From: a virus
Reading direction: 5' to 3' (one strand)
Length of the DNA: 40,131 nucleotides
Virus record (IMG/VR): IMGVR_UViG_3300046007_011723
Location: 1-40,131 of that record
Shown here: positions 7,645 through 38,559 of the stretch, piece after piece
Position numbering within the stretch: position 1 is the stretch's first letter
Layout of the letters: each line of letters starts with the position of its first letter
Notes under the pieces: generated by a model
Databases searched by the model: none
Told to the model about the DNA's origin: nothing
What the model saw: only the letters and a program-made list of their open reading frames with translations
Position numbers and translations under genes: made by a program

Positions 7645-8174
7645 TGCCTGATAATTTAACCATTGATGCCTCATCAGCATCCGGAGCCGATACTACCTAT
7701 CTGGTAAAAGTCGATCCTGGATTGACCAGCAATCAGATCAGTATTGCCAATCTTCTGAACAGCACGAGTGGTAATGTCGGATTTACTACTAGCAATATCC
7801 ATACTTTGGGTAATACAAATCGTAAATTTCGCGGCATTTATCTGTCTCAGGAAATCAACGCCAACTCTCTGGTGATTAATGAGACTGCTGGAACCATCAA
7901 CTTCAAGTCCAATGTATCAGCCAATGGTTTTGAAATTGTTAACAGCACAGCGGAACCTGCCCTAAAAAGCTTGTTTGATTTGCGCATATATGCCAATGCC
8001 AACAGCAGAGGTGGCGCGGTTGTGGTTACCAATAGCCCTCTGAGGCTTGCAAGTTTTACTACGACCGATCGCGACAATCACATTATTTCACCAGCCAACG
8101 GTGATGTAATTTTAAACATAACCACCAATAAAATACAGGTGTTTGCTGATAAAGTTTGGACGGATTTACACTAA
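7644..8174 (+). CDS. Small tail-fibre-like protein, paralogue of the preceding gene
   Basis: This 176-residue protein has exactly the same length as its upstream neighbour and the same ending (PANGDVILNITTNKIQVF, then WTDLH). It shares GGAVVVTNSPLRL near residue 130 and the module HTLGNTNRKFRGIYL near residue 50. The pair therefore arose by tandem duplication and then diverged strongly at the N-terminus. Its composition (Ser, Asn, Thr, Ala) is that of beta-helical fibre proteins. Both junctions are TAATG overlaps, so translation is coupled. Confidence 0.7.
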   Translation: MPDNLTIDASSASGADTTYLVKVDPGLTSNQISIANLLNSTSGNVGFTTSNIHTLGNTNRKFRGIYLSQEINANSLVINETAGTINFKSNVSANGFEIVNSTAEPALKSLFDLRIYANANSRGGAVVVTNSPLRLASFTTTDRDNHIISPANGDVILNITTNKIQVFADKVWTDLH

Positions 8175-24100: not shown

Positions 24101-24651
24101 ACGGTTGGGTAAGTTCCAATAGCACCAACATCGGTAACCTTAATGCCTGGACCAGTAATAATAGTGCCAACATTGGCAACATAAACACTTGGCTAAGAAC
24201 CATAACCACCACTGGCGTTGCCGAAGGTGCTAACCTGTACTACACTGATGATCGTGTATGGGGTAATGTTGGTACCAACATCGGTAACCTAAATGCCTGG
24301 GTCAGCTCTAATAGTACCAACATTGGCAACCTTAATAGTTGGGTTAGCTCCAACAGCAGCAACATCGGTAACCTAAATGCCTGGACTAGCTCTAATAGTA
24401 CCAACATCGGTAACCTAAACGCCTGGACTAGTTCCAACAGCAGTAACATCGGCAACCTAAATAGTTGGGTCACCAATGTATACACCAGCATACCCACCAG
24501 CGCCAACAACATCAACAGCATAACCACCCTGGCAGCTCCAGCTACTACGGGCGATGCTGGTACAGCTGGCGAAGTAAGATTTGATGGTAATTATTTCTAT
24601 GTGTGCATAGCCAGCAATACCTGGCGACGCGCTAACCTACATACCTGGTAA
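21118..24651 (+). CDS. Large tail-fibre protein: coiled-coil shaft, beta modules, 14-residue repeats
   Basis: This is a 1177-residue protein. Residues about 20-500 form a long charged coiled coil, a probable trimeric shaft. Residues 575-720 are Asn/Thr/Gly-rich with two fibre modules (ILPDVSSTYNLGSVSQTW and IMPATDNVHDLGNATHRWR). Residues 720-915 contain EGTANLYHTVARVRTNIFAG and a second LVEGANLYFTNTRV, common fibre motifs. Residues 920-1123 are thirteen 14-residue repeats. The end (GTAGEVRFDGNYFYVCIASN, then TWRRANLHTW) is a typical fibre tip. It is probably a long fibre that contacts the host. A late-type promoter stands before it. Confidence 0.85.
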   Translation: MDLKKFIAFNSEAKSEAHDPAVLESYARSLEVVNENLGKMLLMSAEIEKIREDLKHVVKEGEFKGAMVALLSQIEPLREEIARQVNTEVQAIRESFRTLTTKTTSLQKLVDEAVDQQNLRIINHFETQEQKLLDLRQAVEDRADLGPMKTKLEHVAEDVDYLKKLDIYDNLNATQEAAVALGQHIDDIDGNVVKLAKEILEFKQDMLDTSLVLERSTNARYQEALEALDENLRNVTTLQENLQDIEKRYDDLNKELTESNLAHDVATAELGKVLENIQKANHEHAEVLDEQVTHIVGNITTLKQELDALGQGLDQGTEAHAQSVARIQELTTHIPRLDARIDEHVGLVEQEIKSLSKTLLEQNTRIQDSHRDLKAQVAKVITDGKMLLEREQSRIDGDTLFEDRYDRIIKRVEEVEGMLADIDAKTEHNDVIYEHVRTSSDRLDAHADRLMQKLQETANQSISDLKKKTKLLNEAAPTDIAGINAGLGVDTRDLDKKFVTFQQLRDHYRQFVDRVQRQLAENIGGGGAQFLWDLDDVDINTVRYPGNGELLIWSGALRKWISGNAFTISTVQGNLTVQESIEVLGNANIYGFLTVGGNIILGDATTDNFTLGADVNSDILPDVSSTYNLGSVSQTWGNIHVDSVYVDNLWAAGNIMPATDNVHDLGNATHRWRDLYLSGNSLYIGTTSFHDTGAQLEIKYNGNVALRSDTTGNIRANLFIGDLDGRVSNIANHTTDALREGTANLYHTVARVRTNIFAGTGVLYNNVTGQIRISQNVDPEVDVQFSNVTITGNLNVLGAAANFEANILNVQDPSIIFGDGNPSDTYDLGIHGEYVSSGTRYSGLFRDASADGRWKLYANLTNMPQNFVDTSSISFNFANLELNHVHGRVTLIDNFTTTDLVEGANLYFTNTRVWANVGTNIGNLNSWVSSNSSNIGNINSWLRTTNSNVGNLNAWTSSNSSNIGNLNAWTSSNSSNIGNINSWLRTTNSNIGNINGWVSSNSTNIGNLNAWTSNNSANIGNINTWLRTITTTGVAEGANLYYTDDRVWGNVGTNIGNLNAWVSSNSTNIGNLNSWVSSNSSNIGNLNAWTSSNSTNIGNLNAWTSSNSSNIGNLNSWVTNVYTSIPTSANNINSITTLAAPATTGDAGTAGEVRFDGNYFYVCIASNTWRRANLHTW
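23875..24486 (+). repeat. Thirteen 42-nt tandem repeats in the fibre gene
   Basis: The coding repeats have period 42 nt (14 residues, type NIGNLNAWTSSNSS). Eight units run from 23875 to 24210, five from 24277 to 24486, split by a 66-nt insert that encodes VAEGANLYYT and a RVWGNVGT end. The same insert type (VEGANLYFT, RVWANVGT) also precedes the first block, so the array is two copies of a larger unit. Several 42-nt units are almost identical in DNA, so slippage or recombination is probably recent. Confidence 0.9.
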
Positions 24652-29415: not shown

Positions 29416-29643
29416 ATGGGAATGTGGACCACAGAACTTCAGGACGAGATGAAGACCGTCGTAGCCGAGCTCAGTAACGCCAGCCAGGCCTGCTACGGAA
29501 ACCACAGTTATGCTGCGGGTTACCTGGAAAGCGTTGTCGTAGACCTGCTTCGACACGCACCCAAGCGTCGACAGCGAGCGTTAATCAGCGACCTGTGTCG
29601 AGTCTCCCAGGAGCTCAGAGCTCGGGCTCAGAACCATGTATAA
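29416..29643 (+). CDS. Small conserved phage protein
   Basis: This is a 75-residue helical protein. NHSYAAGYLESVVVDLLRHA followed by a basic stretch (PKRRQRALISDL) is a pattern that I recall from hypothetical proteins of T4-like phages. AGGAG lies 6-7 nt before the ATG. The function is unknown. It overlaps the 46-residue gene that follows by 8 nt. Confidence 0.6.
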   Translation: MGMWTTELQDEMKTVVAELSNASQACYGNHSYAAGYLESVVVDLLRHAPKRRQRALISDLCRVSQELRARAQNHV

Positions 29644-29776
29644 GGTTCAGCTCATAAACTTTGGTACGACCCGAGAGTTTCAGACCCTGGAAGCTGCTCT
29701 GACCTGGGCTCGTTCCACGGGTTTCGAATGCAGCATCTGGGCCGGATCTGAATACTTGCAGATGGTTAGACCCTAA
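29636..29776 (+). CDS. 46-residue hypothetical protein
   Basis: The ATG at 29636, inside the end of the previous gene, encodes 46 residues with an alternating beta-alpha-beta look (YKVQLINFG, then LEAALTWARSTGF, then CSIWAGSEYLQMV). This small fold occurs in many tiny phage proteins. Its stop lies 4 nt before the conserved block of promoter P6, as for other genes here. No RBS is obvious apart from coupling. Confidence 0.5.
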   Translation: MYKVQLINFGTTREFQTLEAALTWARSTGFECSIWAGSEYLQMVRP

Positions 29777-29787
29777 AGACCCGTTGC

Positions 29788-29816
29788 TTGACTCGGGTAT
29801 TCGAAGGTGCTAGAAT
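29788..29816 (+). promoter_or_regulatory. Repeated early promoter P6
   Basis: TTGACT, 17 nt, TAGAAT, GGTGC before the -10 and AAGACCCGTTGC before the -35. The core is identical to that of P7 over all 29 nt. ATG 29824 lies at the predicted +1 but opens a separate 36-codon frame. Confidence 0.85.
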
Positions 29817-29823
29817 GATTGTT

Positions 29824-29934
29824 ATGGTGAAGACGAAACCGAACAGACAAATTGCAGAGGGTAGTCCGAAGCAGATGAGTTTCGTTGGATCCAGCCAAGC
29901 AATTGGTGCTGGGCAAAGAAATTTTACAGCGTAA
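29824..29934 (+). CDS. 36-codon leader-like open frame
   Basis: The ATG at the predicted transcription start of P6 opens 36 codons (start MVKTKPNRQIAEG), which end 14 nt before the next gene. There is no Shine-Dalgarno; it could be translated only from a leaderless mRNA. Unlike the other promoters of the family, the frame is not continuous with the downstream gene. It may be a leader peptide, a decayed gene or chance. Confidence 0.3.
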   Translation: MVKTKPNRQIAEGSPKQMSFVGSSQAIGAGQRNFTA

Positions 29935-29948
29935 TCAGGAGCTCGTCC

Positions 29949-30215
29949 ATGCGTAATCGTCTAGTCGTAGGTCTAAAGAATAGCCAGAAGATCCGAGTCA
30001 TCGTCAATGGCGTAGCGTTTCACACCACAGTAGCTGGTGCCCTGGAAGGCATGACGTTCGTGGATCAGCGTCTCGCAGTAAGCCATGTTCTGACCGAGCT
30101 GGGCTTGGGGCAGTTCAACCATACCGATCGACCCATGGGCATAGCCAAACCCGTCCGAGTCTACAATCACAAGAATGAGCGTGTTACCATAGATGTTCAG
30201 GTTGATTTAGTCTAG
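29949..30215 (+). CDS. Small hypothetical protein
   Basis: This is an 88-residue protein, basic and beta-rich at the start (RNRLVVGLKNSQKIRVIVNG). The middle (ALEGMTFVDQRLAVSHVLTE) is helical. No family is recognised. AGGAG lies 7 nt before the ATG. It belongs to the P6 transcript together with the next gene. Confidence 0.6.
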   Translation: MRNRLVVGLKNSQKIRVIVNGVAFHTTVAGALEGMTFVDQRLAVSHVLTELGLGQFNHTDRPMGIAKPVRVYNHKNERVTIDVQVDLV

Positions 30216-30223
30216 GAGCAGAT

Positions 30224-30409
30224 ATGGACTTTCTTATTCGAGCGGAAAAGTATGCTGAGGCCCGAGGCCACGATGCCTTTTTCAAATGGATCTATGTGAA
30301 TCACCGCGAATCCAACGGAGTCACGGATAGTGTGTGGAAATCATTAAGTTATCTTTATGGTGATGACGTGGCTCATGGGCTAGAATTCCCTGAATACCCC
30401 GTTGCTTGA
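30224..30409 (+). CDS. Small hypothetical protein with DDVAHGL motif
   Basis: This is a 61-residue helical protein. Its YLYGDDVAHGLEF resembles YMKADDVAHMLDL in the protein at 30462, so the two may be distant paralogues. GGAG lies 7-8 nt before the ATG. Its stop codon TGA is inside the -35 box of P7, which shows how tightly coding and promoter sequences are merged. Confidence 0.6.
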   Translation: MDFLIRAEKYAEARGHDAFFKWIYVNHRESNGVTDSVWKSLSYLYGDDVAHGLEFPEYPVA

Positions 30410-30434
30410 CTCGGGTATTCGAAGGTGCTAGAAT
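30406..30434 (+). promoter_or_regulatory. Repeated early promoter P7
   Basis: TTGACT, 17 nt, TAGAAT, GGTGC before the -10; same 29-nt core as P6. The -35 contains the stop codon of the gene before. ATG 30441 is at the predicted +1 and in frame with the start at 30462. Confidence 0.85.
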
Positions 30435-30461
30435 ACATGTATGATGAATAAGGAATCCAAG

Positions 30462-30641
30462 ATGACCATAGACCCGGATGTTCGTAGTTACGCCCTAGAC
30501 CTGGTTGCCCAGGGTGTCGTAGACACAGAAGTGTTGCTCAGAGCCTGTTTGGGCTACATGAAAGCCGATGATGTAGCTCACATGCTGGACCTCAACGAAC
30601 TCAGCCCCCGTTTCATGTCAGAGGCTATCGAAAATGTCTGA
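30462..30641 (+). CDS. Small hypothetical protein with DDVAHML motif
   Basis: This is a 59-residue acidic, helical protein (YMKADDVAHMLDLNELSPRF). AAGGA lies 8-9 nt before ATG 30462; the in-frame ATG at 30441, at the predicted +1, would add MMNKESK. Small phage proteins with DDV and DLNELS segments are frequent, but no function is known to me. It overlaps the next gene by 8 nt. Confidence 0.6.
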   Translation: MTIDPDVRSYALDLVAQGVVDTEVLLRACLGYMKADDVAHMLDLNELSPRFMSEAIENV

Positions 30642-30819
30642 CCAGATCATTACTAGAGTCATTAAGTATTTCACTGATGCTGGCGAAGCAGGCTTCGATC
30701 GTGAAGCCAGTCCTGGCAACGGAAGCTATTACGTAGCCCTCTATGATGGAAGCTACGATGCTACAGGCTTCGACACTCTGGCCGAGGCCATTGAGGAACT
30801 TCGATACGCTACAGAATGA
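30634..30819 (+). CDS. Small hypothetical protein
   Basis: This is a 61-residue protein. SYYVALYDGSYDATGFDTLA followed by EAIEELRYATE gives a small beta-beta-alpha look, as in many phage mini proteins. It is acidic and probably soluble. The start overlaps the previous gene by 8 nt. The stop lies 8 nt before the P8 -35 box. Confidence 0.6.
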   Translation: MSDQIITRVIKYFTDAGEAGFDREASPGNGSYYVALYDGSYDATGFDTLAEAIEELRYATE

Positions 30820-30827
30820 CCCGTTGC

Positions 30828-30856
30828 TTGACTCGGGTATTCCCTGGTGCTAGAAT
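30828..30856 (+). promoter_or_regulatory. Repeated early promoter P8
   Basis: TTGACT, 17 nt, TAGAAT, GGTGC before the -10. It starts the longest transcript of the right arm, with the first member of the MNERI/HFGVEE family. ATG 30863 is at the predicted +1 and in frame with the start at 30887. Confidence 0.85.
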
Positions 30857-30886
30857 AGTGGTATGGTAAACAACAAGGAGCAAGCG

Positions 30887-31201
30887 ATGAACGAACGAAT
30901 TAGACAACTTGCTGAACAAGCGGGTATTCCTGCCATCGACGGTGTATGGGACTACAATGACAGAAATCTTTTAGTAAAAGATGGCGGTGAATGGCGGACG
31001 GCTGTGCCATCTGAAATCATCGGCACCATGATCAACTCTGAAAAAGGACTCGAAAAGTTCGCAGAGTTGATTGTAAAGGAATGTGCCGAAATTTCAGAAC
31101 AAAGTCAATGGAGTGAAGCCAAGGGCGAATATTATGAAGGCTTTAATGAGGCTATGATTTATGTTTCCAATAAGATTAAAGAACATTTTGAGATTAGTTA
31201 A
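30887..31201 (+). CDS. MNERI-family protein, copy A
   Basis: This is a 104-residue member of the family repeated ten times in this arm. The N-terminus is MNERIRQLAEQAG, the core LEKFAELIVKECAEI and the end IKEHFEIS. Between the conserved ends lies a 30-residue stretch private to this copy. The family is common and often multicopy in T4-like phages, with no function known to me. AAGGAG precedes ATG 30887. An in-frame ATG at 30863 would add MVNKEQA. Confidence 0.75.
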   Translation: MNERIRQLAEQAGIPAIDGVWDYNDRNLLVKDGGEWRTAVPSEIIGTMINSEKGLEKFAELIVKECAEISEQSQWSEAKGEYYEGFNEAMIYVSNKIKEHFEIS

Positions 31202-31410
31202 TGAATAACGACAGCGACCAAACTATGAAACTAGTGGGGATGTACGACGCCCATGTCATCACCTGCCCCAAGCATGGCGAACACCCGCACTGCATCATCA
31301 GCAACATCAAAGGCCACGAAGGTGTGTGGTGTCAGATTTGCTGGCTGGAGAGCCTTGGCACGCCATTTCCCATGCAAAAGAAACGACTGCCTTTTGGAGA
31401 TGGAACATGA
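31201..31410 (+). CDS. Small Cys/His-rich zinc-binding-type protein
   Basis: This is a 69-residue protein with a CPKHGEHPHC segment and WCQICWLES, so four Cys and several His can bind zinc. Similar mini proteins are common in phages of proteobacteria. The start overlaps the previous stop by 1 nt (TAATG) and the end overlaps the 29-residue gene by 4 nt. Confidence 0.65.
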   Translation: MNNDSDQTMKLVGMYDAHVITCPKHGEHPHCIISNIKGHEGVWCQICWLESLGTPFPMQKKRLPFGDGT

Positions 31411-31496
31411 ACCCTAATCCAACCTGTGAGTTGAATTGTAGATTTATATATGGGCACGTTGCCAAAAAGATTCCTAAATATTTAGAAATTGAATAA
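31407..31496 (+). CDS. 29-residue fragment related to the protein at 39419
   Basis: The ATG at 31407 opens 29 codons: NPNPTCELNCRFIYGH parallels HPNPDCDRHCKFVYGY at the start of the 73-residue protein at 39419. The zinc-ribbon C-terminal part (CIECH) is absent, so this looks like a truncated copy or a minimal version. Overlaps of 4 nt and 1 nt with its neighbours mean that it is still set up for translation. Confidence 0.5.
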   Translation: MNPNPTCELNCRFIYGHVAKKIPKYLEIE

Positions 31497-31813
31497 TGAA
31501 TGATGAAAAGCTATTAGAGCTGGCTGCTAAAGCTATAGGTGAGCCCTACTATGAACATGTGCCTGGTGGCGGACTATATTTGTCTAATGGGGTGTATTGG
31601 AACCCACTCACCGACGACGGGGATGCGCTGCGGCTAGCGGTGAAGTTAGAGGTGCAGGTTGTCATTCCTGGCGACAACAAAGATGTATATGCTGGAAAAC
31701 TCTTGTTTGACGCTTTTGAGCCAGTAAATGGGGACCCCTACGCCGCCACCCGCCGAGCCATCGTCCGCGCTGCTGCCGATATGGCAAAAGCAGAGGGTTG
31801 GGTTCAATCGTGA
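31496..31813 (+). CDS. Phage ABA-sandwich-type protein
   Basis: This is a 105-residue protein with WNPLTDDGDALRLAVKL at about residues 36-52 and YAATRRAIVRAAADMAKAEG near the end. This is a widespread phage protein, from memory the Pfam phage ABA sandwich family, common in phages of Beta- and Gammaproteobacteria. Part of the DNA (31739-31780) is much richer in G+C than the surroundings, which suggests recent acquisition. The function is unknown. Confidence 0.7.
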   Translation: MNDEKLLELAAKAIGEPYYEHVPGGGLYLSNGVYWNPLTDDGDALRLAVKLEVQVVIPGDNKDVYAGKLLFDAFEPVNGDPYAATRRAIVRAAADMAKAEGWVQS

Positions 31814-32052
31814 ACCCACGAATTAAACAACTTGCTGAACAGGCTTGGATTGATACTGAGGAAACCTTTGGTAGCTTTGTTGATGAAATTGGTGAAATAA
31901 ATTATACTTTTCTACATGCCTATGACCAAGAGTTCGCCCAGCTAATTATTTTGGACTGCCTAGAAATCTGCAAACAGCGAGAGCAAGCAAATCTTTATGG
32001 TGTTAAAGAGGCACTGGCCACAATTAGGGAACATTTTGAGGTTGAACTATGA
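31810..32052 (+). CDS. MNERI-family protein, copy B (divergent)
   Basis: This is an 80-residue member with start VNPRIKQLAEQAW (GTG), a diverged core EFAQLIILDCLEI and end IREHFEVEL. GTG 31810 overlaps the previous stop by 4 nt and matches the family start, so I prefer it to the TTG 12 nt upstream. It is the most diverged core of the array, with K to Q and the EC pair changed to DC. Confidence 0.7.
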   Translation: MNPRIKQLAEQAWIDTEETFGSFVDEIGEINYTFLHAYDQEFAQLIILDCLEICKQREQANLYGVKEALATIREHFEVEL

Positions 32053-32186
32053 TGGAGTTTTTTGTAATTGTTAGCAGCTTTTTAATGCTTTTGCTTAGCA
32101 TTATGTTGGTGTTTGTATTTGACGACTTAGTGTTAAATAAACATTTTACCAAGAAAGTACATAAGCTACTAGGAGTCGACGAGTGA
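32049..32186 (+). CDS. 45-residue single-helix membrane protein
   Basis: The ATG at 32049 overlaps the previous stop (ATGA) and encodes 45 residues: a hydrophobic helix (FFVIVSSFLMLLLSIMLVFV) and a short basic-acidic tail ending HKLLGVDE. It ends in a GTGA overlap with the next gene. It is a probable inner-membrane micro-protein. I know no family. Confidence 0.6.
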   Translation: MMEFFVIVSSFLMLLLSIMLVFVFDDLVLNKHFTKKVHKLLGVDE

Positions 32187-32413
32187 ACCCACGAATTCGA
32201 GAACTGGCTGAACAGGCTGGGTTTATTCCGGGTATTATGGGTCTGAACCGATTCACTTACTTTGATCCAGAAAAATTCGCCGAGTTGATTGTGAGAGAAT
32301 GTATGGATCTCTTGGAAGATTACACAACAGACGTCAACGTGGGTGGTATTCAATATAACGTATTGAGTGCCGATGAGACTTTGCAGAAACATTTCGGAGT
32401 TGAACGTGATTAG
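32183..32413 (+). CDS. MNERI-family protein, copy C
   Basis: This is a 76-residue member with start VNPRIRELAEQAGFI (GTG at 32183), core PEKFAELIVRECMDLL and end LQKHFGVERD. The GTGA overlap with the membrane micro-protein fixes the start. Family core and ends are well kept, and the middle (DVNVGGIQYNV) is private. The end overlaps the next gene by 8 nt. Confidence 0.75.
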   Translation: MNPRIRELAEQAGFIPGIMGLNRFTYFDPEKFAELIVRECMDLLEDYTTDVNVGGIQYNVLSADETLQKHFGVERD

Positions 32414-32555
32414 GTGGTACTGGCACAAGTTTATGCAGCATATTGGCTACAGAAAAGTCTGGTACTTTCCTACCCGACACATGTCAGGCCTAGGTGACTT
32501 TTGGTGCTGGGAATACAGACCTGACCTGAAGAAGGGTGTGTATTGCAGCAGATGA
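32406..32555 (+). CDS. Small Trp/Tyr-rich basic protein
   Basis: This is a 49-residue protein that starts with GTG 32406 inside the end of copy C. It is rich in Trp, Tyr and Arg (IRWYWHKFMQHIGYRKVWYF). It may be membrane-peripheral. No family is recognised. The start is uncertain, but the overlap matches the local pattern. A 22-nt gap separates it from promoter P9. Confidence 0.5.
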   Translation: MIRWYWHKFMQHIGYRKVWYFPTRHMSGLGDFWCWEYRPDLKKGVYCSR

Positions 32556-32577
32556 ACTTATAGTAATACCCCTTCAC

Positions 32578-32606
32578 TTGACTCGGGTATTGTTTGGTGC
32601 TATAAT
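32578..32606 (+). promoter_or_regulatory. Repeated early promoter P9
   Basis: TTGACT, 17 nt, TATAAT, GGTGC before the -10. ATG 32613 is at the predicted +1 and in frame with the start at 32637. Confidence 0.85.
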
Positions 32607-32636
32607 TCAAGTATGTTAGATAAAAAAGGAACTGCA

Positions 32637-32867
32637 ATGCGTATCATACGAGACCTGGGGCTAGTTCGAGTCATCAGTCTGCAACACGATCCCCGTCGTC
32701 ACGGAGCGGACATAGTGGTTCAGACCCGTGAAACTACTGATTCAGACTGGGTCGTAGCCTGCAAATTCAACAGTTTTACTTCGGACAGTGCGTATACCAA
32801 TGCTGTCGAAGCAGCCTTCGATTGTGTCAGGGAGCTGGCTCATAAAAAAGCTCGAGCTTTTGCTTGA
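32637..32867 (+). CDS. Small hypothetical protein
   Basis: This is a 76-residue protein, beta-rich at first (RDLGLVRVISLQHDPRRHGA, then IVVQTRETTDSDWVVACKF) and with a C-terminal helix. AAAGGA lies 7 nt before ATG 32637; the in-frame ATG 32613 would add MLDKKGTA. Its TGA stop lies inside the -35 box of P10. The family is unknown to me. Confidence 0.6.
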   Translation: MRIIRDLGLVRVISLQHDPRRHGADIVVQTRETTDSDWVVACKFNSFTSDSAYTNAVEAAFDCVRELAHKKARAFA

Positions 32868-32892
32868 CAACCGGTTGTGCTGGTGCTAGAAT
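32864..32892 (+). promoter_or_regulatory. Repeated early promoter P10
   Basis: TTGACA, 17 nt, TAGAAT, GGTGC before the -10; the spacer is otherwise different from the TTGACT members. No ATG at the predicted start; the leader runs to the RBS AAGGAG before 32923. Confidence 0.8.
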
Positions 32893-32922
32893 CGTAGTTA
32901 TTCAAAATCCAAGGAGTTCGTC

Positions 32923-33222
32923 ATGGCCAAGTTATTGATTGTTACCCAGGTTCTGGAAAATTATGGTTCTGAGGATAACCCCTGGTGGAAAGCCAAGGGC
33001 GGCAGCGAGTACGTCATTAAAAACTTTACAGCCTTCAACGCTGTCAACGCTACCGTGCAGAGTCTACGTCATGAAATCGAAATCGACAATCCCCTGTACT
33101 CTGAGTACATCATCAGCTGGGAAGTGGTTGCCGACGACTACCTGACCGACTTCGAACGTAGCCAGCTGGTGTACGAGGGTCGCATAGACTTCCCGGCCCA
33201 GGAACTTAGGATCACAGCATGA
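32923..33222 (+). CDS. Conserved phage protein (MAKLLIVTQVLENYG family)
   Basis: This is a 99-residue protein. The start AKLLIVTQVLENYG, the middle WWKAKGGSEYVIKNF and the end SWEVVADDYLTDFERSQL match a hypothetical family that I recall from many phages of proteobacteria. A strong RBS (AAGGAG) precedes the ATG. No function is known to me. Single gene behind P10, then small genes in series. Confidence 0.75.
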   Translation: MAKLLIVTQVLENYGSEDNPWWKAKGGSEYVIKNFTAFNAVNATVQSLRHEIEIDNPLYSEYIISWEVVADDYLTDFERSQLVYEGRIDFPAQELRITA

Positions 33223-33443
33223 TGAGCAACGAATCTCAGGCAAGATGGCATGCCACCAAGATAATCTGGACATACTTTAGCATCTTAGCGGCGTTATTGG
33301 TTATAGGCTATATCGATTTATTTTATATGGCTGTTGCAGTGGTTGTGATGCTTGCTTTAATCATAGCCATTGCCATATACAGGGATGCCTACCATGATAA
33401 ACTATGGGAGTTGAAGAGAAGTGACCAATCAAGAACTGATTAG
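33222..33443 (+). CDS. Small membrane protein, two helices
   Basis: This is a 73-residue protein with two hydrophobic helices, about residues 11-30 (IIWTYFSILAALLVIGYI) and 32-52 (YMAVAVVVMLALIIAIAIY), then a charged tail. It could start at ATG 33219 or 33222. The first ATG overlaps the previous stop. It is a likely inner-membrane early protein; a holin is possible by form but improbable by its position in the early region. Confidence 0.6.
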   Translation: MSNESQARWHATKIIWTYFSILAALLVIGYIDLFYMAVAVVVMLALIIAIAIYRDAYHDKLWELKRSDQSRTD

Positions 33444-33464
33444 TGCCCTCGATGGAGACAAGCA

Positions 33465-33812
33465 ATGAGCCTGGACATTCGTCTCATGGTCATGCGACCC
33501 ACTGCTATCTTTGATGAAAACATTACCCATAATCTGGGCCCTATGGCCAGTGAGGTAAAATTGGACCATGGACTGACCCTGTACAACATTCTCTGGCGTC
33601 CAGACGAATGCGAACCTCCCTTGCACAAAGCCAGCGACATCGCAGAGCTGCTGGACCAAGCCCTGAATATTCTGATTCAGGACAAGGATCGTCTTAAACA
33701 GTATAATCCGGTGAATAGTTGGGGCAATTACTATAGTCTGGCCGAACTGGTGATTAAATACAGAAATGCTGCCAGAGCAGAACCCCAGGCTGATATCGAG
33801 GTTTGCCGATGA
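33465..33812 (+). CDS. Conserved phage protein (MSLDI family)
   Basis: This is a 115-residue protein. MSLDIRLMV, ENITHNLGPMASEV, YNILWRPDE and NSWGNYYSLAELVIKY are the conserved blocks of a phage family present in many tailed phages as a hypothetical protein. The Asn/His pair in the second block is invariant in memory and could be functional, but no activity is known to me. It overlaps the next gene by 4 nt. Confidence 0.75.
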   Translation: MSLDIRLMVMRPTAIFDENITHNLGPMASEVKLDHGLTLYNILWRPDECEPPLHKASDIAELLDQALNILIQDKDRLKQYNPVNSWGNYYSLAELVIKYRNAARAEPQADIEVCR

Positions 33813-34027
33813 CATATACCATACACATCAGACGTGGTCGATTGGTCATAGATGATCCGCAACGACGCTGTTACAATGGCTGCTATTTTGCATCACACAT
33901 GGAATGGTCTGACTGGGAACCATGGTTTCAAAATGATTTTTATGCTACCCGAGAAGCAGCAGAATATACAGCTCGATTATTTGAACGGGATGACCAACAG
34001 TTTAAAGTTGTGGAGGTAGCAGCATGA
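33809..34027 (+). CDS. Small hypothetical protein
   Basis: This is a 72-residue protein, Trp/Arg-rich and beta-like at the start (TYTIHIRRGRLVIDDPQRRC). FYATREAAEYTARLFERDD is a helix, and QFKVVEVAA the last strand, a beta-alpha-beta plan frequent in phage mini proteins. ATG 33809 in an ATGA overlap is the likely start. It overlaps copy D by 4 nt. Confidence 0.6.
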   Translation: MTYTIHIRRGRLVIDDPQRRCYNGCYFASHMEWSDWEPWFQNDFYATREAAEYTARLFERDDQQFKVVEVAA

Positions 34028-34236
34028 ACGAACGAATTCGACAACTGGCTCTTGAGGCTGGATATCAAGCAGATATGTTTGGCTTTGGCCATTGGGACCA
34101 GCCCGAATGCCAAAAGTTTGCCCTGTTGATTGTCAAGGAATGTGCTGATGTGGCTAAAGAAACAAGATGGGCTGTGCCTCCTAGCCAAGAGCAGATTGCC
34201 AGAGGAATCCAACAACATTTCGGAGTTGAAGAATGA
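34024..34236 (+). CDS. MNERI-family protein, copy D
   Basis: This is a 70-residue member with start MNERIRQLALEAGYQADMFG, core CQKFALLIVKECADV and end IQQHFGVEE. Its last 98 nt are identical to copy I, while its first 45 residues pair with copy J (QADMFGxGHWDQPEC). It is thus a mosaic, pointing to exchange between copies. ATGA overlaps on both sides. Confidence 0.78.
   Translation: MNERIRQLALEAGYQADMFGFGHWDQPECQKFALLIVKECADVAKETRWAVPPSQEQIARGIQQHFGVEE
34139..34236 (+). repeat. 98-nt exact direct repeat, first copy
   Basis: This stretch, the 3' end of copy D with its stop codon, is identical base for base to 36165-36262 in copy I, 2026 nt downstream. Identity ends directly after the stop codon and two bases into the EC codons upstream. 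Lack of any silent change means a recent duplication or gene conversion. Confidence 0.92.
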
Positions 34237-34355
34237 CGGACGGTGACCGGGCCGGTTGGTGGGCCGTTGTATATCTACTTATGGTAGGTGCGGCCGCTTA
34301 CTTTACCATGTTTATGGTCATTTTCAGTTTTATTAAACAAATGTTTTGGAGTTGA
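34233..34355 (+). CDS. 40-residue membrane micro-protein
   Basis: The ATG at 34233 overlaps the stop of copy D. It encodes 40 residues with a hydrophobic helix from residue 9 on (WWAVVYLLMVGAAAYFTMFM and beyond) and a short basic end. The likely place is the inner membrane. No family is known to me. Confidence 0.55.
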   Translation: MTDGDRAGWWAVVYLLMVGAAAYFTMFMVIFSFIKQMFWS

Positions 34356-34357
34356 TA

Positions 34358-34480
34358 ATGAGCCAAGAATTTATCCGTAGTCAGGTAGAGTATTATAGAA
34401 AGCATTTGAACTGTGGTTCCAGTCGAGACTGGAATCTAATTCTGGGACTATATCATTATTATAAAGGATTACTTAAATGA
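34358..34480 (+). CDS. 40-residue hypothetical protein
   Basis: The ATG at 34358, 2 nt after the preceding stop, opens 40 codons: a polar, aromatic-rich helix (SQEFIRSQVEYYRKHLNCGS), then WNLILGLYHYYKGLLK. The end overlaps copy E by 4 nt. Small size means moderate certainty; the overlap pattern supports it. Confidence 0.5.
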   Translation: MSQEFIRSQVEYYRKHLNCGSSRDWNLILGLYHYYKGLLK

Positions 34481-34701
34481 ACAAACGAATTCAAAAACTT
34501 TTTAACGAGGCTGGTTTTCATCAGCCGGAAATGGAACGACTTGGTATTGAAGACAAGTTTGAAAAGTTCGCCCAGTTGATTGTTATGGAATGTGAGCGGG
34601 TAGTATGTGATAAGTTTGATGAGACTGAACCGTGGATGTATCCCGGCGATTTGATGAAACACTTTGGTATTAATAAAGAAGTAAAAAATGACAACGATTA
34701 A
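34477..34701 (+). CDS. MNERI-family protein, copy E
   Basis: This is a 74-residue member with start MNKRIQKLFNEAGF, core FEKFAQLIVMECERVV and end MKHFGINKEVKNDND. The C-terminus is extended and diverged compared with the HFGVEE ending. ATGA overlap at the start; 14-nt overlap with the next gene. Confidence 0.73.
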   Translation: MNKRIQKLFNEAGFHQPEMERLGIEDKFEKFAQLIVMECERVVCDKFDETEPWMYPGDLMKHFGINKEVKNDND

Positions 34702-34900
34702 AAATCCATTTCCCGGTGTTACTCGCTTAGAAAACGGTGATATTGTTTATGAGGATCATATCTGGTGGAGTGAAGAATATTACAACGCCGGTCGTAATCC
34801 AATTAGTGTAAACTTTGACGATCCCGTCAATTGTAGATTTACTTTTGATAAGGATGGAAACCTTAAAAATGTGGAAATGAAGAATGAACGAACGAATTAA
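34688..34900 (+). CDS. Small hypothetical protein
   Basis: This is a 70-residue protein, beta-rich (FPGVTRLENGDIVYEDHIWW, then VNCRFTFDKDGNLKNVEM). I do not recognise a family. Its last residues overlap the start of copy F by 17 nt, where the MNERI codons are read in another frame. Confidence 0.55.
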   Translation: MTTIKNPFPGVTRLENGDIVYEDHIWWSEEYYNAGRNPISVNFDDPVNCRFTFDKDGNLKNVEMKNERTN

Positions 34901-35126
34901 AGAACTAATTGAACAAGCAACAGAATCTACAGGCTTCTTGACCGCAGGCGATAGTGTTAAACCTTTACCCGTAAGAGAATTTAATAAAGAAAAGTTCGCC
35001 GAGTTGATTGTTCGGGAATGTATTGCTATCTGTAAAGATGTAGATGGCGAAGATAACATTGATGCTAGGTCAGGTAGACATGATTGTGCTGTAGAGATTC
35101 AAGAACATTTCGGAGTTGAAGAATGA
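34884..35126 (+). CDS. MNERI-family protein, copy F
   Basis: This is an 80-residue member with start MNERIKELIEQATES, core KEKFAELIVRECIAIC and end IQEHFGVEE, the most typical copy. The private middle is acidic (DVDGEDNIDARS). The end and copy G overlap by 4 nt (ATGA). Confidence 0.78.
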   Translation: MNERIKELIEQATESTGFLTAGDSVKPLPVREFNKEKFAELIVRECIAICKDVDGEDNIDARSGRHDCAVEIQEHFGVEE

Positions 35127-35341
35127 ACGAACGAATTATTAAACTAGGATTAGAGTCTGGAATGCTTAACTATATTGATAACGAGACTCCTCGGCATTAT
35201 TTTCTATGTGGAAACGCTGATGAACAATGCCTAGAAAAGTTTGCTGAGTTGATTGTACGGGAATGTTGCCAGAAACTGGAGAATGACGGCATGGTTGAAG
35301 TTGCCATGGAAATGAAACAACATTTCGGAGTTGAAGAATGA
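35123..35341 (+). CDS. MNERI-family protein, copy G
   Basis: This is a 72-residue member with start MNERIIKLGLESGM, core LEKFAELIVRECCQKL and end MKQHFGVEE. It follows copy F directly, so two copies stand in tandem. A private insert of 25 residues lies after the start (NETPRHYFLCGN). ATGA overlaps on both sides. Confidence 0.78.
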   Translation: MNERIIKLGLESGMLNYIDNETPRHYFLCGNADEQCLEKFAELIVRECCQKLENDGMVEVAMEMKQHFGVEE

Positions 35342-35652
35342 AACTAAGTGAGTTGCATCGTGTAGTAAATCTTTATCACCGTGAAGGTCATTACGAAGAC
35401 CCAGAGGTCATGATTATGATTAAACTGCCATATACAACTGTTGGTTCTCGTCCCATGGTCGCTGTACGAAGTACAAACATGGGATTTGATTGGGAAAAGG
35501 GTAAGTTTATTATCACACCAGACGAAGACCTAACCCCCGCTGATAGGGACTTTGCTGAGAAAATGCGTGACATGCAAGAAAAATGCTCTCATGCTTTATT
35601 AGAGAATCGTCGTCTAAAGGCTGAAATTAAAAAGTTAAAGAGCAAGCCATGA
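35338..35652 (+). CDS. Conserved small phage protein
   Basis: This is a 104-residue protein. The first part (DPEVMIMIKLPYTTVGSRPM, then VAVRSTNMGFDWEKGKFII) is beta-like and resembles hypothetical proteins of other phages. The C-terminal 40 residues form a charged coiled coil (MRDMQEKCSHALLENRRLKA). Overlaps of 4 nt on both sides join it to copies G and H. The function is unknown. Confidence 0.65.
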   Translation: MKLSELHRVVNLYHREGHYEDPEVMIMIKLPYTTVGSRPMVAVRSTNMGFDWEKGKFIITPDEDLTPADRDFAEKMRDMQEKCSHALLENRRLKAEIKKLKSKP

Positions 35653-36047
35653 ACGAAGAACTATTACAACGATTAGAGAGAGAGGCAGAAAAGATCACTC
35701 TGGACATGCCAGCAAGCCTTGATGATACTGAATTTACCAAGATATTCAATCTAGAGTTTGCTCGGTTAATTGTTGCTGAATGTATTGATACTGTATTGGA
35801 TTCCAGCGTAGAATATACCACCAGACCCCGCATAGCACAGGAACTAAGTCAGCATTTCGAATTAGTTAACGATAACAAATTACCCAATCCACCGACTAAT
35901 TATGGTACATTTAATCAGGGTGTCATGTCCGAGCGTAATCGCATCGTAAATTTATTAATGATTCAACACGAGATGGCCAAGGATCGACATAATTATTGGA
36001 AGGTTGCTGCAGAATTAATTCAGGCCGATGTAGCGAGTGACACATGA
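35649..36047 (+). CDS. MNERI-family protein, copy H, with C-terminal extension
   Basis: This is a 132-residue protein, the largest member. Start MNEELLQRLEREAEK, core LEFARLIVAECIDTV, then LSQHFELVND, after which 55 extra residues follow (FNQGVMSERNRIVNLLMIQH, then a helix). The extension resembles another common phage mini-protein and may be a fusion of two once separate genes. ATGA overlaps on both sides. Confidence 0.7.
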   Translation: MNEELLQRLEREAEKITLDMPASLDDTEFTKIFNLEFARLIVAECIDTVLDSSVEYTTRPRIAQELSQHFELVNDNKLPNPPTNYGTFNQGVMSERNRIVNLLMIQHEMAKDRHNYWKVAAELIQADVASDT

Positions 36048-36262
36048 ATAAAAATATTGAAAACTGCCTATATCAAGCAGGGCTAACAGCACAGGGCTGT
36101 TGGGATGAACTGGATGACTATGCTAGGGAAGGTATAGAAAAGTTCGCCGAGTTGATTGTTCGGAAATGTGCTGATGTGGCTAAAGAAACAAGATGGGCTG
36201 TGCCTCCTAGCCAAGAGCAGATTGCCAGAGGAATCCAACAACATTTCGGAGTTGAAGAATGA
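36044..36262 (+). CDS. MNERI-family protein, copy I
   Basis: This is a 72-residue member with diverged start MNKNIENCLYQAGL, core IEKFAELIVRKCADV and end IQQHFGVEE. The last 98 nt are identical to copy D, including the stop. The upstream half is different, so the shared tail was copied recently. ATGA overlaps on both sides. Confidence 0.78.
   Translation: MNKNIENCLYQAGLTAQGCWDELDDYAREGIEKFAELIVRKCADVAKETRWAVPPSQEQIARGIQQHFGVEE
36165..36262 (+). repeat. 98-nt exact direct repeat, second copy
   Basis: This is the second copy of the 34139-34236 sequence, covering the 3' end and stop codon of copy I. Direct orientation. Recombination between the two would delete about 2 kb with seven whole genes in between. 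Confidence 0.92.
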
Positions 36263-36471
36263 ACACCATTAGATTATGTAAGCGAGAAATAGAGAGAATT
36301 AAAGAACTGTTTGATACTATTCATACCACTGGCAATGTAGGATTTGTTACTCTGACTCAACATGATGAAGACTCTGGTATTGGCTATGAACTCAGAGCAA
36401 CCTTTCAGATTACTCACAAGAATACCGATGGTGATTTTGTTGTCACCATTACTGACCACAGGGACTGGTAA
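36259..36471 (+). CDS. Small hypothetical protein
   Basis: This is a 70-residue protein: a helix (KREIERIKELFDTIHTTGN), then beta strands (GFVTLTQHDEDSGIGYELRA, FQITHKN, DFVVTITDH). This looks like a small alpha-beta unit of phage type. No family is recognised. It overlaps copy I by 4 nt and the next gene by 1 nt. Confidence 0.6.
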   Translation: MNTIRLCKREIERIKELFDTIHTTGNVGFVTLTQHDEDSGIGYELRATFQITHKNTDGDFVVTITDHRDW

Positions 36472-36635
36472 TGGGAAATACCTACGAAGTTAAAGCCTGG
36501 GAATCCGCAGTGAACAGTGACCACTTCTACTGGTTAGAGATATACCGAGGCGAGAGCTTGCTAAAAGCGTTATACCGTGTTTGGTGGTGTAAGCGCAATG
36601 GTTGGAAGTGCATCAAACTGGAATATCGTCCATGA
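36471..36635 (+). CDS. 54-residue conserved phage protein (NTYEVKAW type)
   Basis: The ATG at 36471 (TAATG overlap) encodes 54 residues. NTYEVKAW, FYWLEIYRGESLLKALY and CIKLEYRP match the plan of a mini protein that I recall from several T4-like and siphophages (beta-beta-alpha-beta). The end overlaps copy J by 4 nt. Confidence 0.65.
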   Translation: MGNTYEVKAWESAVNSDHFYWLEIYRGESLLKALYRVWWCKRNGWKCIKLEYRP

Positions 36636-36838
36636 ACGACCGAATTCGAGAACTTGCTCTCCAGGCCGGATACCAGGCAGACATGTTCGGCCTGGGTCAT
36701 TGGGACCAGCCCGAATGCCGAAAGTTCGCTGAATTGATCGTAGAAGAATGCTGTGCACAACTGCTGGACCGTGGTCCATACAGCAACGGTGATTGGGCCA
36801 AATATCGTATTCGAAAACACTTTGGACTCATGGAATAA
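36632..36838 (+). CDS. MNERI-family protein, copy J
   Basis: This is a 68-residue member with start MNDRIRELALQAGYQADMFG, core CRKFAELIVEECCAQL and end IRKHFGLME. Its first 45 residues match copy D (GHWDQPEC shared), but the C-terminal half is private. I start it at ATG 36632 in the ATGA overlap; the longer open frame from 36602 is not needed. Confidence 0.76.
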   Translation: MNDRIRELALQAGYQADMFGLGHWDQPECRKFAELIVEECCAQLLDRGPYSNGDWAKYRIRKHFGLME

Positions 36839-36843
36839 CCAAC

Positions 36844-37092
36844 ATGCATAATTTTTTTCACCATTGTCCGGACTGGGACTTCATGCAGATTGATAGGCAT
36901 GATCCTGAATTTACAAGTTGCATGTGCAATCTTTCAGATATTCCTGTTGTGCTGGAAGTTCTTGATGATCTTATGGGTTACAGTGGCATAGGCTCTGACG
37001 GCAATCCATACGACACTCCCTCCTGGAACGCTGCTTTGCGTGCTGCCCGAGACGTGATCCAACAACGCTTGGGGCTTGACAACCTAGCATAG
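36844..37092 (+). CDS. Conserved small phage protein (DCPDWD type)
   Basis: This is an 82-residue protein. HHCPDWDFMQIDRHDPEFTS followed by CMCNL is a pattern known to me from many tailed phages (CPDWDxM, then CxC), possibly a metal site. The rest is helical. I choose ATG 36844, 5 nt after copy J. Its last codons form the -35 and spacer of promoter P11. Confidence 0.65.
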   Translation: MHNFFHHCPDWDFMQIDRHDPEFTSCMCNLSDIPVVLEVLDDLMGYSGIGSDGNPYDTPSWNAALRAARDVIQQRLGLDNLA

Positions 37093-37104
37093 GTGTGCTA
37101 CAAT
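37076..37104 (+). promoter_or_regulatory. Repeated early promoter P11 (divergent member)
   Basis: TTGACA, 17 nt, TACAAT; GGTGTGC replaces GGTGC before the -10. It lies 4.2 kb from P10 and within the end of the preceding gene. GTG 37113 is near the predicted start and in frame with ATG 37131. Confidence 0.7.
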
Positions 37105-37130
37105 CAGACATCGTGAACCATGGAGAATAT

Positions 37131-37337
37131 ATGATCAGCATCGAAGGTTTGACCCCCACCCAATGCACCATCGCAGACAGACTCTGGACTGCTGAGAGTG
37201 CCGATGCCATCACAGCACTCATGCTGGTATTTGGCAAAGAACAAGTAAACATTGTCATGGAAATGATGACGCTGGCTGCTTTGGATACAATCGAACCTGA
37301 CCTTGACGCAGTTGCCGACTACCTGAGGAAGTTCTAA
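37131..37337 (+). CDS. Conserved small phage protein
   Basis: This is a 68-residue helical protein. ISIEGLTPTQCTIADRLWTA followed by FGKEQVNIVMEMMTLAALD is a plan that I recall from other phages as a hypothetical family (IADxLW, then GKEA). The promoter P11 lies inside the longer open frame that begins at 37095, so ATG 37131 is chosen. The RBS is weak (GGAGA). Confidence 0.65.
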   Translation: MISIEGLTPTQCTIADRLWTAESADAITALMLVFGKEQVNIVMEMMTLAALDTIEPDLDAVADYLRKF

Positions 37338-37622
37338 ATGAAATTCAAATACCTTTTTAAGAAACCCGATCGAGATCAGCTATGGGGCATGTCTCCAAGT
37401 CAGTTTAAGACTTTACTCAAGCGTCGAGGGTTTGAAGTTGACAGAGACTTCTTCAAGATGGGTGCCATGGCTAAGAAAGGCAATCGGCTGTATCGCTTTC
37501 GTTACTGGGCATTCCCCGACTTCTTTGTAGACATCAGCTGCCCTCTGAATGAATTTGATCGTTGGGCCAACAGTGTTGATCGTACCATAAACTTTTATAA
37601 TTTTCTTGAGAGCTCGAAATGA
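37338..37622 (+). CDS. Small hypothetical protein
   Basis: This is a 94-residue basic, aromatic-rich protein (LYRFRYWAFPDFFVDISCPL, then FDRWANSVDRTINFYNF). I do not recognise a family. It starts directly after the previous stop and overlaps the next gene by 4 nt. Confidence 0.6.
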   Translation: MKFKYLFKKPDRDQLWGMSPSQFKTLLKRRGFEVDRDFFKMGAMAKKGNRLYRFRYWAFPDFFVDISCPLNEFDRWANSVDRTINFYNFLESSK

Positions 37623-37837
37623 ACAAAGTCTGGATTCTGGAACAGTTCGATCACAATGCCGAAGCTAGTGCTCAGAGCACCATTCTCAACGTTTTTGCAA
37701 ACCGAGCCAGTGCCGAGGCCTGGCGTGATCGTTACATACGAGAAGAGTTTGACATTGCTGATGATTTTGATGGTGACCTCGAGGCCGAAGTTCCTGACCT
37801 GGAGTTCAGTATCCATGCTTACTATGTTCTAGACTGA
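37619..37837 (+). CDS. Small hypothetical protein
   Basis: This is a 72-residue acidic protein: strand KVWILEQFDHN, helix FANRASAEAWRDRYIREEF, and end strand FSIHAYYVLD. This beta-alpha-beta plan, as at 33809, is frequent in phage mini proteins. ATGA overlap at the start; 1 nt gap to the next gene. Confidence 0.6.
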   Translation: MNKVWILEQFDHNAEASAQSTILNVFANRASAEAWRDRYIREEFDIADDFDGDLEAEVPDLEFSIHAYYVLD

Positions 37838-37838
37838 C

Positions 37839-38141
37839 ATGGCCGCCAGAATAGAGCGATACTTTATTGTAGCAGGCAATCACTCTGAGTATAAAGACTG
37901 GGTCTTTAAAAACCGTTCAAGATTCCCTGACATCAATCTAAATGATTTTATCTGGGTCCATAGTTCAATCATATTCCGGGGGTATGCTAACCCCCATGGA
38001 TTTTTTGTGGGCACTTTTGGATCTAGAGCCGACCTCTATGATATTGTACAGACCATAATCATGTGTAGTCATGACATGAGCAATCAAATCAAATCCGATT
38101 TAATCAACCGTGTTTTACCACCAGCGTATCCTGCACCATGA
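37839..38141 (+). CDS. Small hypothetical protein
   Basis: This is a 100-residue protein, possibly alpha-beta: RIERYFIVAGNHSEYKDWVF, then IWVHSSIIFRGYANPHGFFV, then a helix DLYDIVQTIIMCSH. I recognise only a faint likeness to phage hypothetical proteins. It overlaps the next gene by 4 nt. Confidence 0.6.
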   Translation: MAARIERYFIVAGNHSEYKDWVFKNRSRFPDINLNDFIWVHSSIIFRGYANPHGFFVGTFGSRADLYDIVQTIIMCSHDMSNQIKSDLINRVLPPAYPAP

Positions 38142-38320
38142 CCTATGAAGACCAAGTAATCGAAATAGCTCGATCTAGTATGACCCTTGTTCCTGGCATG
38201 GAACTGCTATTACGTACTGTATACCGAGCTGGTTATAATGAATGCCTTAGAAACATCAAAGAAAAACATTATACCAGTTATACTGATTGTATTTCCGATG
38301 GCGGAATGGATCCAAGATGA
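38138..38320 (+). CDS. Small hypothetical protein
   Basis: This is a 60-residue mainly helical protein (YEDQVIEIARSSM, LLLRTVYRAGYNECLRNIKE). AGYNE near the C-terminal part is often seen in small phage proteins. ATGA overlaps on both sides. Confidence 0.6.
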   Translation: MTYEDQVIEIARSSMTLVPGMELLLRTVYRAGYNECLRNIKEKHYTSYTDCISDGGMDPR

Positions 38321-38559
38321 AATGGTATTCATATAATGAATATGATCCAGACCATCCAGAAGCAGATGACACTGGCGGTTACATTGTAACTATTTCTGAA
38401 GATGAAATTAAACGGACATACTGGCCTTATTGGTATGAAAGAATGTGCAAGAAATTTGGTAAGACCGAAGTTGATGCCAAGTTTAGTTTTAAAGATTGTT
38501 TGGAAGATTGGATAATTGTCAATTGGGCCTGGGAGAGTACATGTGATGACAAAATTTGA
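38317..38559 (+). CDS. Conserved phage protein (YNEYDPDHPEAD type)
   Basis: This is an 80-residue acidic, aromatic protein. MKWYSYNEYDPDHPEADDTG, GYIVTISEDEI, YWPYWYERMCKKFG and DCLEDWIIVNWAWES are the conserved blocks of a phage family with no known function. I choose ATG 38317 in the ATGA overlap; the longer open frame from 38287 overlaps the preceding gene by 34 nt. Confidence 0.72.
   Translation: MKWYSYNEYDPDHPEADDTGGYIVTISEDEIKRTYWPYWYERMCKKFGKTEVDAKFSFKDCLEDWIIVNWAWESTCDDKI

Follow-up and report, generated by a model that had tools for sequence, protein, structure and literature searches.

A ten-gene phage array of small proteins with two variable modules, probably exchanged at conserved anchors

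Results

The array and its genes

The virus record IMGVR_UViG_3300046007_011723 of IMG/VR, a stretch of 40,131 bases (hereafter the window), contains an array of ten small genes, A to J, all on the plus strand. A first-pass annotation had described them as ten paralogues of a family without known function. All ten are present with the starts it listed and have no internal stop codons. A profile built from copies A-J recovers the weakest of them at E = 8.9e-21, the next best open reading frame (ORF) of the window having E = 0.42. As the ten copies were the training set of this profile, the independent evidence for the family is provided by hundreds of relatives elsewhere.

All ten proteins, H being the weakest case, can be parsed into an N-anchor, a variable module V1, the core FAELIVREC, a variable module V2 and the C-anchor HFGVEE. 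The DNA of the start, core and end anchors is about 36, 30 and 21 nucleotides (nt) long. What had been taken for one variable middle is therefore two variable segments flanking the core. The common start, core and end reported earlier hold in general, but copy H diverges (MNEELLQRL, FARLIVAEC, QHFELV, long C-terminal tail). The ending HFGVEE is found in D, F, G and I, whereas A, B, C, E, H and J end otherwise.

Nor are the middles private to each copy. The V2 DNA is common to D and I, copies D and J are alike over the N-anchor, V1 and the core (81% DNA identity over 120 nt), and most modules recur in other loci. Among 568 members from other non-redundant loci, matches at 50% identity or more were found for V1 of eight copies and V2 of nine; a joint match of V1 and V2 was found for copy J only. 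In nine copies a module certainly recurs at an identity of at least 0.5 with a different partner, and in B it does so only at 0.52.

Copy A (30887..31201) has V1 at 30926-31054, the core at 31055-31084, V2 at 31085-31180 and the ending EHFEIS at 31181-31198. Its V2 occurs with 100% identity in locus L044 beside a different V1, its V1 with 0.56 identity in L009 beside a different V2, and its V1 DNA is identical in L054. Copy B (31810..32052, GTG start; V1 31849-31929, core 31930-31959, V2 31960-32028, ending EHFEVEL 32029-32049) has weak module matches elsewhere (V2 0.52 in L176). Copy C, also with a GTG start (32183..32413; V1 32222-32272, core 32273-32302, V2 32303-32386, ending KHFGVERD 32387-32410), shares V1 with L085 and V2 with L017, both at 0.82 and each time beside a different partner.

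Copy D (34024..34236) consists of V1 at 34063-34113, the core at 34114-34143, V2 at 34144-34212 and the ending QHFGVEE at 34213-34233; at 0.5 identity or more its V1 is found in 20 other members and its V2 in three. V1 of copy E (34477..34701; V1 34516-34563, core 34564-34593, V2 34594-34656, ending KHFGIN with a tail 34657-34698) is present with 100% identity in L255 and L241 beside different V2. Copies F (34884..35126; V1 34923-34991, core 34992-35021, V2 35022-35102, ending EHFGVEE 35103-35123) and G (35123..35341; V1 35162-35236, core 35237-35266, V2 35267-35317, ending QHFGVEE 35318-35338) overlap by ATGA. V2 of F recurs at 0.85 in L037 and V2 of G at 0.94 in L087 and L085, always beside a different V1.

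The divergent copy H (35649..36047) has V1 at 35688-35753, the core at 35754-35783, V2 at 35784-35849 and QHFELV with the C-terminal extension at 35850-36044, and overlaps copy I by ATGA. Its V1 is found at 0.82 in L164 and its V2 at 0.64 in L180. Copy I (36044..36262; V1 36083-36139, core 36140-36169, V2 36170-36238, that of D, ending QHFGVEE 36239-36259) has its V1 with 100% identity in L244 and its V2 with 100% identity in L009, with a different partner each time. Copy J (36632..36838; V1 36671-36721, core 36722-36751, V2 36752-36814, ending KHFGLME 36815-36835) is the one whose two modules occur together elsewhere, in L017, between homologous flanks.

Association of V1 and V2

The first scans yielded 527 complete distinct genes, of which 497 were parsed and 488 were left after dereplication at 90%. 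The larger set went from 1,025 matches to 946 parsed, 631 distinct and complete, and finally 619 genes. Because of its bait, the first scan is enriched in the V1 type of copy D (a cluster of 22). The third scan was run with a module-free scaffold query, and the search for the core-DNA pattern has no module preference. Linkage was analysed mainly in 578 members from 201 of the 211 non-redundant loci, without protein dereplication, and modules were considered alike at 60% identity or more.

V1 is alike in 504 pairs of members, V2 in 296 pairs, and both in seven. In 500 runs with V2 shuffled among the members, the mean number of pairs alike in both was 0.89 and the maximum was 5. As a control, the two halves of a single module go together in 375 of 448 pairs (84%) for V1 and in 251 of 332 (76%) for V2. 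Smaller or dereplicated sets give the same picture. Copies of the same genome rarely have a module in common: among 1,011 pairs from within loci, five share only V1, five only V2 and none both, with no clear excess. The combination of V1 and V2 is unique for 485 of the 488 members, three combinations being seen twice. Chao1 estimates are about 1,005 V1 and 1,143 V2 modules, which are lower bounds for what the scans sample.

By these counts, V1 and V2 are combined almost at random. Comparison shows that each module is inherited whole, the breakpoints lying at the anchors, both between paralogues and between phages.

Conservation of the anchors at the DNA level

Pairs sharing V1 were picked to differ in V2, and pairs sharing V2 to differ in V1. 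In the former, DNA identity is at the level of random pairs upstream of the ATG (0.27-0.37), rises to 0.80-0.87 between the ATG and mid-core, and declines to 0.74 where the core ends and to 0.38 and 0.29 within V2. In the latter it is 0.28-0.29 before the core, 0.78-0.85 in the core and V2, 0.84 in HFGVEE and 0.35-0.30 past the stop. This selection in part imposes the fall in identity at the other module; what is informative is the place of the fall and the outer edges.

Codons in the anchors are also much more uniform than the codon usage of the genes themselves, which serves as background. With one member per locus (218 members), CGA accounts for 89% of Arg-4 codons of the N-anchor (background 18%); in the core, GCC for 86% of Ala (20%), GAG for 89% of Glu (22%) and TTG for 88% of Leu codons (28%); and GGA for 97% of Gly codons of the C-anchor (25%). 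This pattern is present in 76 low-GC and 39 high-GC members alike. In random pairs, the same codon is used at equal amino acids with frequency 0.69-0.77 in the anchors versus 0.45-0.49 expected.

Exchange events

Several events can be read from pairs of loci with homologous flanks. Where locus L012 has a single copy, L017 has two in tandem; the L012 copy combines V1 from the first of these with V2 from the second. The flanks of the two loci are 97% identical upstream and 95% downstream. The pair records a core-to-core crossover that removed, or read in reverse added, the intervening piece. L153 and L154 each have one gene between flanks with 86% and 83% identity, and V2 is kept but V1 is replaced. 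L067 and L254 (94% identity over 9.2 kb), as well as L254 and L291 (88% over 8.0 kb), have several modules in common in new pairings. The V2 sequence MDLLEDYTTD was considered as a marker of one syntenic site in the window, L012, L015, L017 and L060 and rejected, the downstream flank being common to L017 and L012 only.

In 41 of 67 recent module sharings between loci (at least 95% DNA identity), the fetched stretches of the two loci have less than 100 nt of homology besides. Identity stops at scattered points of the core in the recent sharings compared (29 of V2, 41 of V1). We searched 29 records, many of them fragments, and found no RVT_1 reverse transcriptase (template and variable repeats were not searched for), no tyrosine integrase, and a single resolvase match below the cut-off. 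RecA/UvsX was matched (E <= 0.001) in 13 of 25 long contigs, in 12 of them above the cut-off. Since the crossover points scatter and no dedicated enzyme scored above the cut-off in the 29 records, general homologous recombination or annealing is the likeliest, and simplest, candidate mechanism.

A ribosome-binding site within the C-anchor

The sequence CATTTCGGAGTTGAAGAATGA encodes HFGVEE and at the same time contains GGAG, located seven bases upstream of an ATG overlapping the stop codon. A 4-nt overlap with the next start is observed in 497 of the 619 genes; for 121 of the 497, the gene that follows is itself a detected member. The sequences show a ribosome-binding site within the C-anchor, which in most copies also includes the overlapping start codon of the following gene. 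The GGA glycine codon occurs in 438 of 463 overlapping and 82 of 100 non-overlapping genes; as it is frequent in the latter too, overlap alone does not explain it.

In the 211 loci, 330 occurrences of the C-anchor DNA (two mismatches allowed) fall within detected members and 40 lie elsewhere. With three mismatches, the N-anchor was found 344 times inside and 7 outside, the core 436 times inside and 3 outside. Among the 40 outside C-anchors, 24 have an in-frame ATG upstream, including seemingly unrelated ORFs, some of them hydrophobic (sorted by eye), and the other 16, which have none, could represent plain leaders, truncated genes or remnants; a family member follows in 17 of the 40. Examples are at 8497 in L176, 8646 in L087 and 3527 in L151. 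The first-pass annotation assigned the conserved end to the protein scaffold; because the same DNA also occurs outside the family, part of it is better read as the ribosome-binding site of the next gene, and the C-anchor as a putative transferable ribosome-binding-site tail.

The same layout of translational coupling is seen in the window in a small hydrophobic ORF unrelated to the family (32049..32186, plus strand; repeat family D4), which ends with LLGVDE, has GGAG and overlaps copy C by GTGA. A Pfam search with this ORF upstream of copy C (32052-32183) gave no match.

Distribution of the family

Three scans of IMG/VR confirmed at least 393, 465 and 465 relatives, and an exact 20-nt piece of core DNA was found in at least 120 stretches. 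Between 1 and 18 copies are present in each of 25 long contigs, which were chosen among loci with a known copy. None of 314 loci has copies on both strands. The major capsid protein gp23 is matched in 13 of the long contigs and not in the other 12, which may be fragments; the latter suggest that the family probably extends beyond T4-like phages. The earlier statement that the family occurs in other T4-like phages thus holds for uncultured ones. Among deposited phages (50,697 records, four tblastn queries) it reduces to MW202520.1, matched at E 5e-3 and 0.2, and one noise match. MW202520.1 is itself a metagenomic genome, with a single family copy (profile match 1.1e-10).

Foldseek against BFVD with copy D as the query gave, as its best eight matches, proteins of uncultured Caudovirales (e.g. 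A0A6J7WSW9; probability 0.97-1.00, 28-36% identity), which are probable family members. A plasmid search for relatives returned noise only. The scan of genome contigs gave two loci, a low estimate, as the query was copy F alone and not the profile. Family copies were also observed in contigs binned as metagenome-assembled genomes (MAGs) of Rhodoferax and Bacteroidetes (L081, L082), perhaps phage contigs within the bins.

Distant relatives in bacterial genomes, in single copy (L315-L320), match along the entire scaffold (E between 2e-8 and 5e-7 per genome). Besides MAG G026, they occur in 3 of 399 genomes of one bacterial family, with one match each: L318, 5592-5930 (minus strand); L319, 5584-5832 (plus); and L320, 5384-5632 (plus). 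Two of the three are in long contigs. The neighbouring genes look like metal-transport genes.

Searches of Pfam and PHROG with the ten copies assigned no family. Relatives scanned with Pfam (87 members), NCBIfam (39) and PHROGs (39) gave scattered single weak matches or none, and these matches were set aside as noise. No published description of the family was found in open-licence PubMed Central (PMC) papers. Nearly every full-length protein is a unique combination, and this may explain the absence of the family from databases.

Selection and predicted structure

For pairs chosen by DNA identity in the ranges 0.7-0.8, 0.8-0.9 and 0.9-0.97, the ratio of nonsynonymous to synonymous substitution rates (dN/dS) is 0.07, 0.10 and 0.11 in V1 and 0.11, 0.10 and 0.07 in V2; below 0.7, synonymous sites are saturated. 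Such ratios show purifying selection on both modules, and novelty comes from new pairings more than from the middles mutating freely.

Structures were modelled with AlphaFold2 for copies D and A. The model of D (87 sequences) has a mean predicted local distance difference test score (pLDDT) of 86.9 and a predicted template modelling score (pTM) of 0.72, with helices at 3-12, 27-45 and 55-66. For A (66 sequences) the scores are 83.7 and 0.63, with helices at 3-11, 41-72 and 81-101. In both models the anchors form helix 1, part of helix 2 and the end of helix 3. V1 is placed between helices 1 and 2 and can be a loop, as mostly in D, or a small three-stranded sheet, as in A (strands 20-22, 27-32, 35-38). 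V2 is modelled as the later part of helix 2, a turn and the start of helix 3. The first-pass annotation had proposed a scaffold carrying different surfaces. The models of D and A, with their three common helices, support such a common frame, and the middles are indeed diversified over phages; however, they do not vary freely, being conserved modules reused with other partners.

Neither Foldseek nor a sequence search found relatives in the PDB. The best VIA-align scores (copy A, Z 5.2, root-mean-square deviation (rmsd) 5.2 over 81 residues; copy D, Z 3.7, rmsd 5.5 over 62 residues) fall in the range common for helical models and were not accepted as relatives. Copy A aligns within noise (Z 3.9, rmsd 9.1 over 66 residues) to 7uq2_D, T4 Vs.4, a protein related to the cyclic-oligonucleotide-based antiphage signalling system (CBASS). 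The median length of the 578 members is 76 residues and their median net charge is -5.5.

Genomic context

The primase, NrdA, NrdB, ThyX and deoxycytidylate (dCMP) deaminase of the window match phage families. The window has 1.2 kb in common with L002, at 85% identity, and the contig of L002 (G020) contains the gp23 capsid gene and a RecA-like gene; for this reason the window phage is probably T4-like. Ten neighbouring small ORFs have no Pfam match, no RNA families were found at 29500-38500, and no tRNA was found in the window. A promoter-like repeat TTGACTCGGGTATT...GGTGCTAGAAT precedes small genes at 29774, 30392, 30814 and 32564, with a weaker instance at 32880; it is perhaps an early promoter of this phage.

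Two large ORFs lie outside the array. The ORF 8156-10147, which resembles a subtilisin-type protease, matches phrog_9158, the protease family phrog_3677 and, at a weak level, a tail fibre family. The fibre-like ORF at 21118-24651 (1,177 amino acids) contains many NIGNLNAWTSSNSS-type repeats, with open antisense frames over the repeats.

Discussion

We consider it likely that the ten genes form an array of modular cassettes, each encoding a small acidic helical protein with two independently inherited modules. Exchange would proceed by general homologous recombination or annealing over the short anchors during co-infection, and that exchange would keep the anchor DNA alike. The phage would gain combinatorial novelty in a set of small proteins, probably made early, that would bind host or defence proteins through one surface per module. 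Host-directed binding proteins, anti-defence proteins included, appear to fit best, because there are many copies, the proteins are small and acidic, the genes lie in a setting of small genes and promoter-like repeats, and each module is under purifying selection.

Several points weigh against this reading. The seven pairs alike in both modules, against 0.9 expected, are a small residue of linkage. Within pairs sharing V1, codon identity is 0.72-0.78 in the anchors and 0.65 in V1, and so modest an excess does not separate the three possible causes of anchor uniformity, which may be constraint, homogenisation by exchange or recent spread. The long contigs without a RecA match may be fragments, or may use another recombinase, which was not searched for. 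Finally, the part concerning function is inferred only, as the family has no relative in Pfam, PHROG, NCBIfam or PDB.

This last point is also in favour of selfish cassettes, that is, modules spreading by virtue of readily recombining anchors with little benefit to the phage, as is the large share of recent sharings (41 of 67) between loci with little other homology. However, each module is under purifying selection and many copies are kept per genome, so that this explanation is unlikely. Alternatively, the genes could be translational filler, kept as carriers of ribosome-binding sites for coupled translation, the peptides mattering little. Indeed, GGAG with an overlapping start is present in 497 of 619 genes, the next gene is usually unrelated, and the C-anchor occurs at 40 places outside detected members. 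On the other hand, dN/dS is about 0.1 in both modules, helical core residues are conserved, and the N-anchor and core are rare outside the family (7 and 3 places); we regard filler as quite unlikely. The cassette layout with conserved joints resembles what a dedicated site-specific or retroelement system (a shufflon, an integron-like system or a diversity-generating retroelement) would produce. Such a system is improbable, given the scattered breakpoints, the lack of loci with copies on both strands, and the absence of RVT_1 and tyrosine integrase, with one sub-cut-off resolvase, in the 29 records, many of which are fragments.

Ordinary duplication and divergence, with tolerant loops of paralogues drifting apart, would account for ten tandem paralogues with variable middles in one phage, but it is hardly credible when V1 and V2 have different histories (seven joint pairs versus 504 and 296, the halves of a module staying together in 84% and 76%) and the modules are conserved at dN/dS about 0.1. 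An assembly artefact deserves equally little credence. The anchors are short near-identical repeats in metagenome assemblies, and assemblers might join wrong halves there. However, in seven chosen near-identical contig pairs with different metagenome numbers, all 24 comparable V1-V2 pairs agree (one L038 member being counted twice), the swaps lie between homologous flanks, and in most recent sharings exact identity ends within 2-20 nt of the core, too short for long k-mers.

If the modular-array reading is right, the family is a natural combinatorial protein library and a sign that novelty is strongly selected for in small phage genes; function in this block of phage dark matter would then be assigned by module identity rather than whole-gene identity. 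The free assortment of modules points to independent action, as would be expected of two-target adaptors. A bolder version, which we put forward as a rather doubtful speculation, is a community-wide library of two-part adaptors, holding at least a thousand or so modules of each kind, any V1 being joinable to any V2 at DNA-level joints and each module binding its own host target. In that case a single crossover would create a new bivalent inhibitor or matchmaker, already provided with a ribosome-binding site for the next cassette.

Comparison with known systems

Domain swapping is known in phage tail fibres, endolysins and bacterial HsdS. The latter, the specificity subunit of Type I restriction systems, is a protein of about 400 amino acids with the order conserved, variable 1, conserved centre, variable 2, conserved, with exchange of the variable regions through recombination in the conserved ones. 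The layout and the swapping of the present family work alike. However, its members have about 70-100 amino acids, are mainly helical and occur in many copies per phage. Membership in HsdS was rejected, as no HsdS or restriction Pfam match was found in the ten copies or in 87 aligned members (HsdM and HsdR were not searched for). To our knowledge, there is no other multi-copy phage family of 70-100 amino acids with two conserved modules near random association over many contigs at DNA-uniform joints.

A study by Smug et al. (2023; PMC10684548) describes fragments shared by otherwise different phage proteins, with recent exchange over lineages. There, the minimum shared fragment was 50 amino acids and the phages were from RefSeq, so that this family would be missed. 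Nor does it fit domain mosaicism as defined there (at least 50 amino acids in otherwise unrelated proteins), its modules being mostly of 10-45 amino acids in a common scaffold. The lambda protein Ea22/Ead is described as having a central coiled coil and a C-terminal domain (PMC10834534). Membership in Ea22/Ead was rejected, as 87 members gave no profile match at E <= 0.01. The likeness is that Ea22 too is a small early phage protein, with mosaic genes (PMC10834534), whereas early expression of the present family is only probable.

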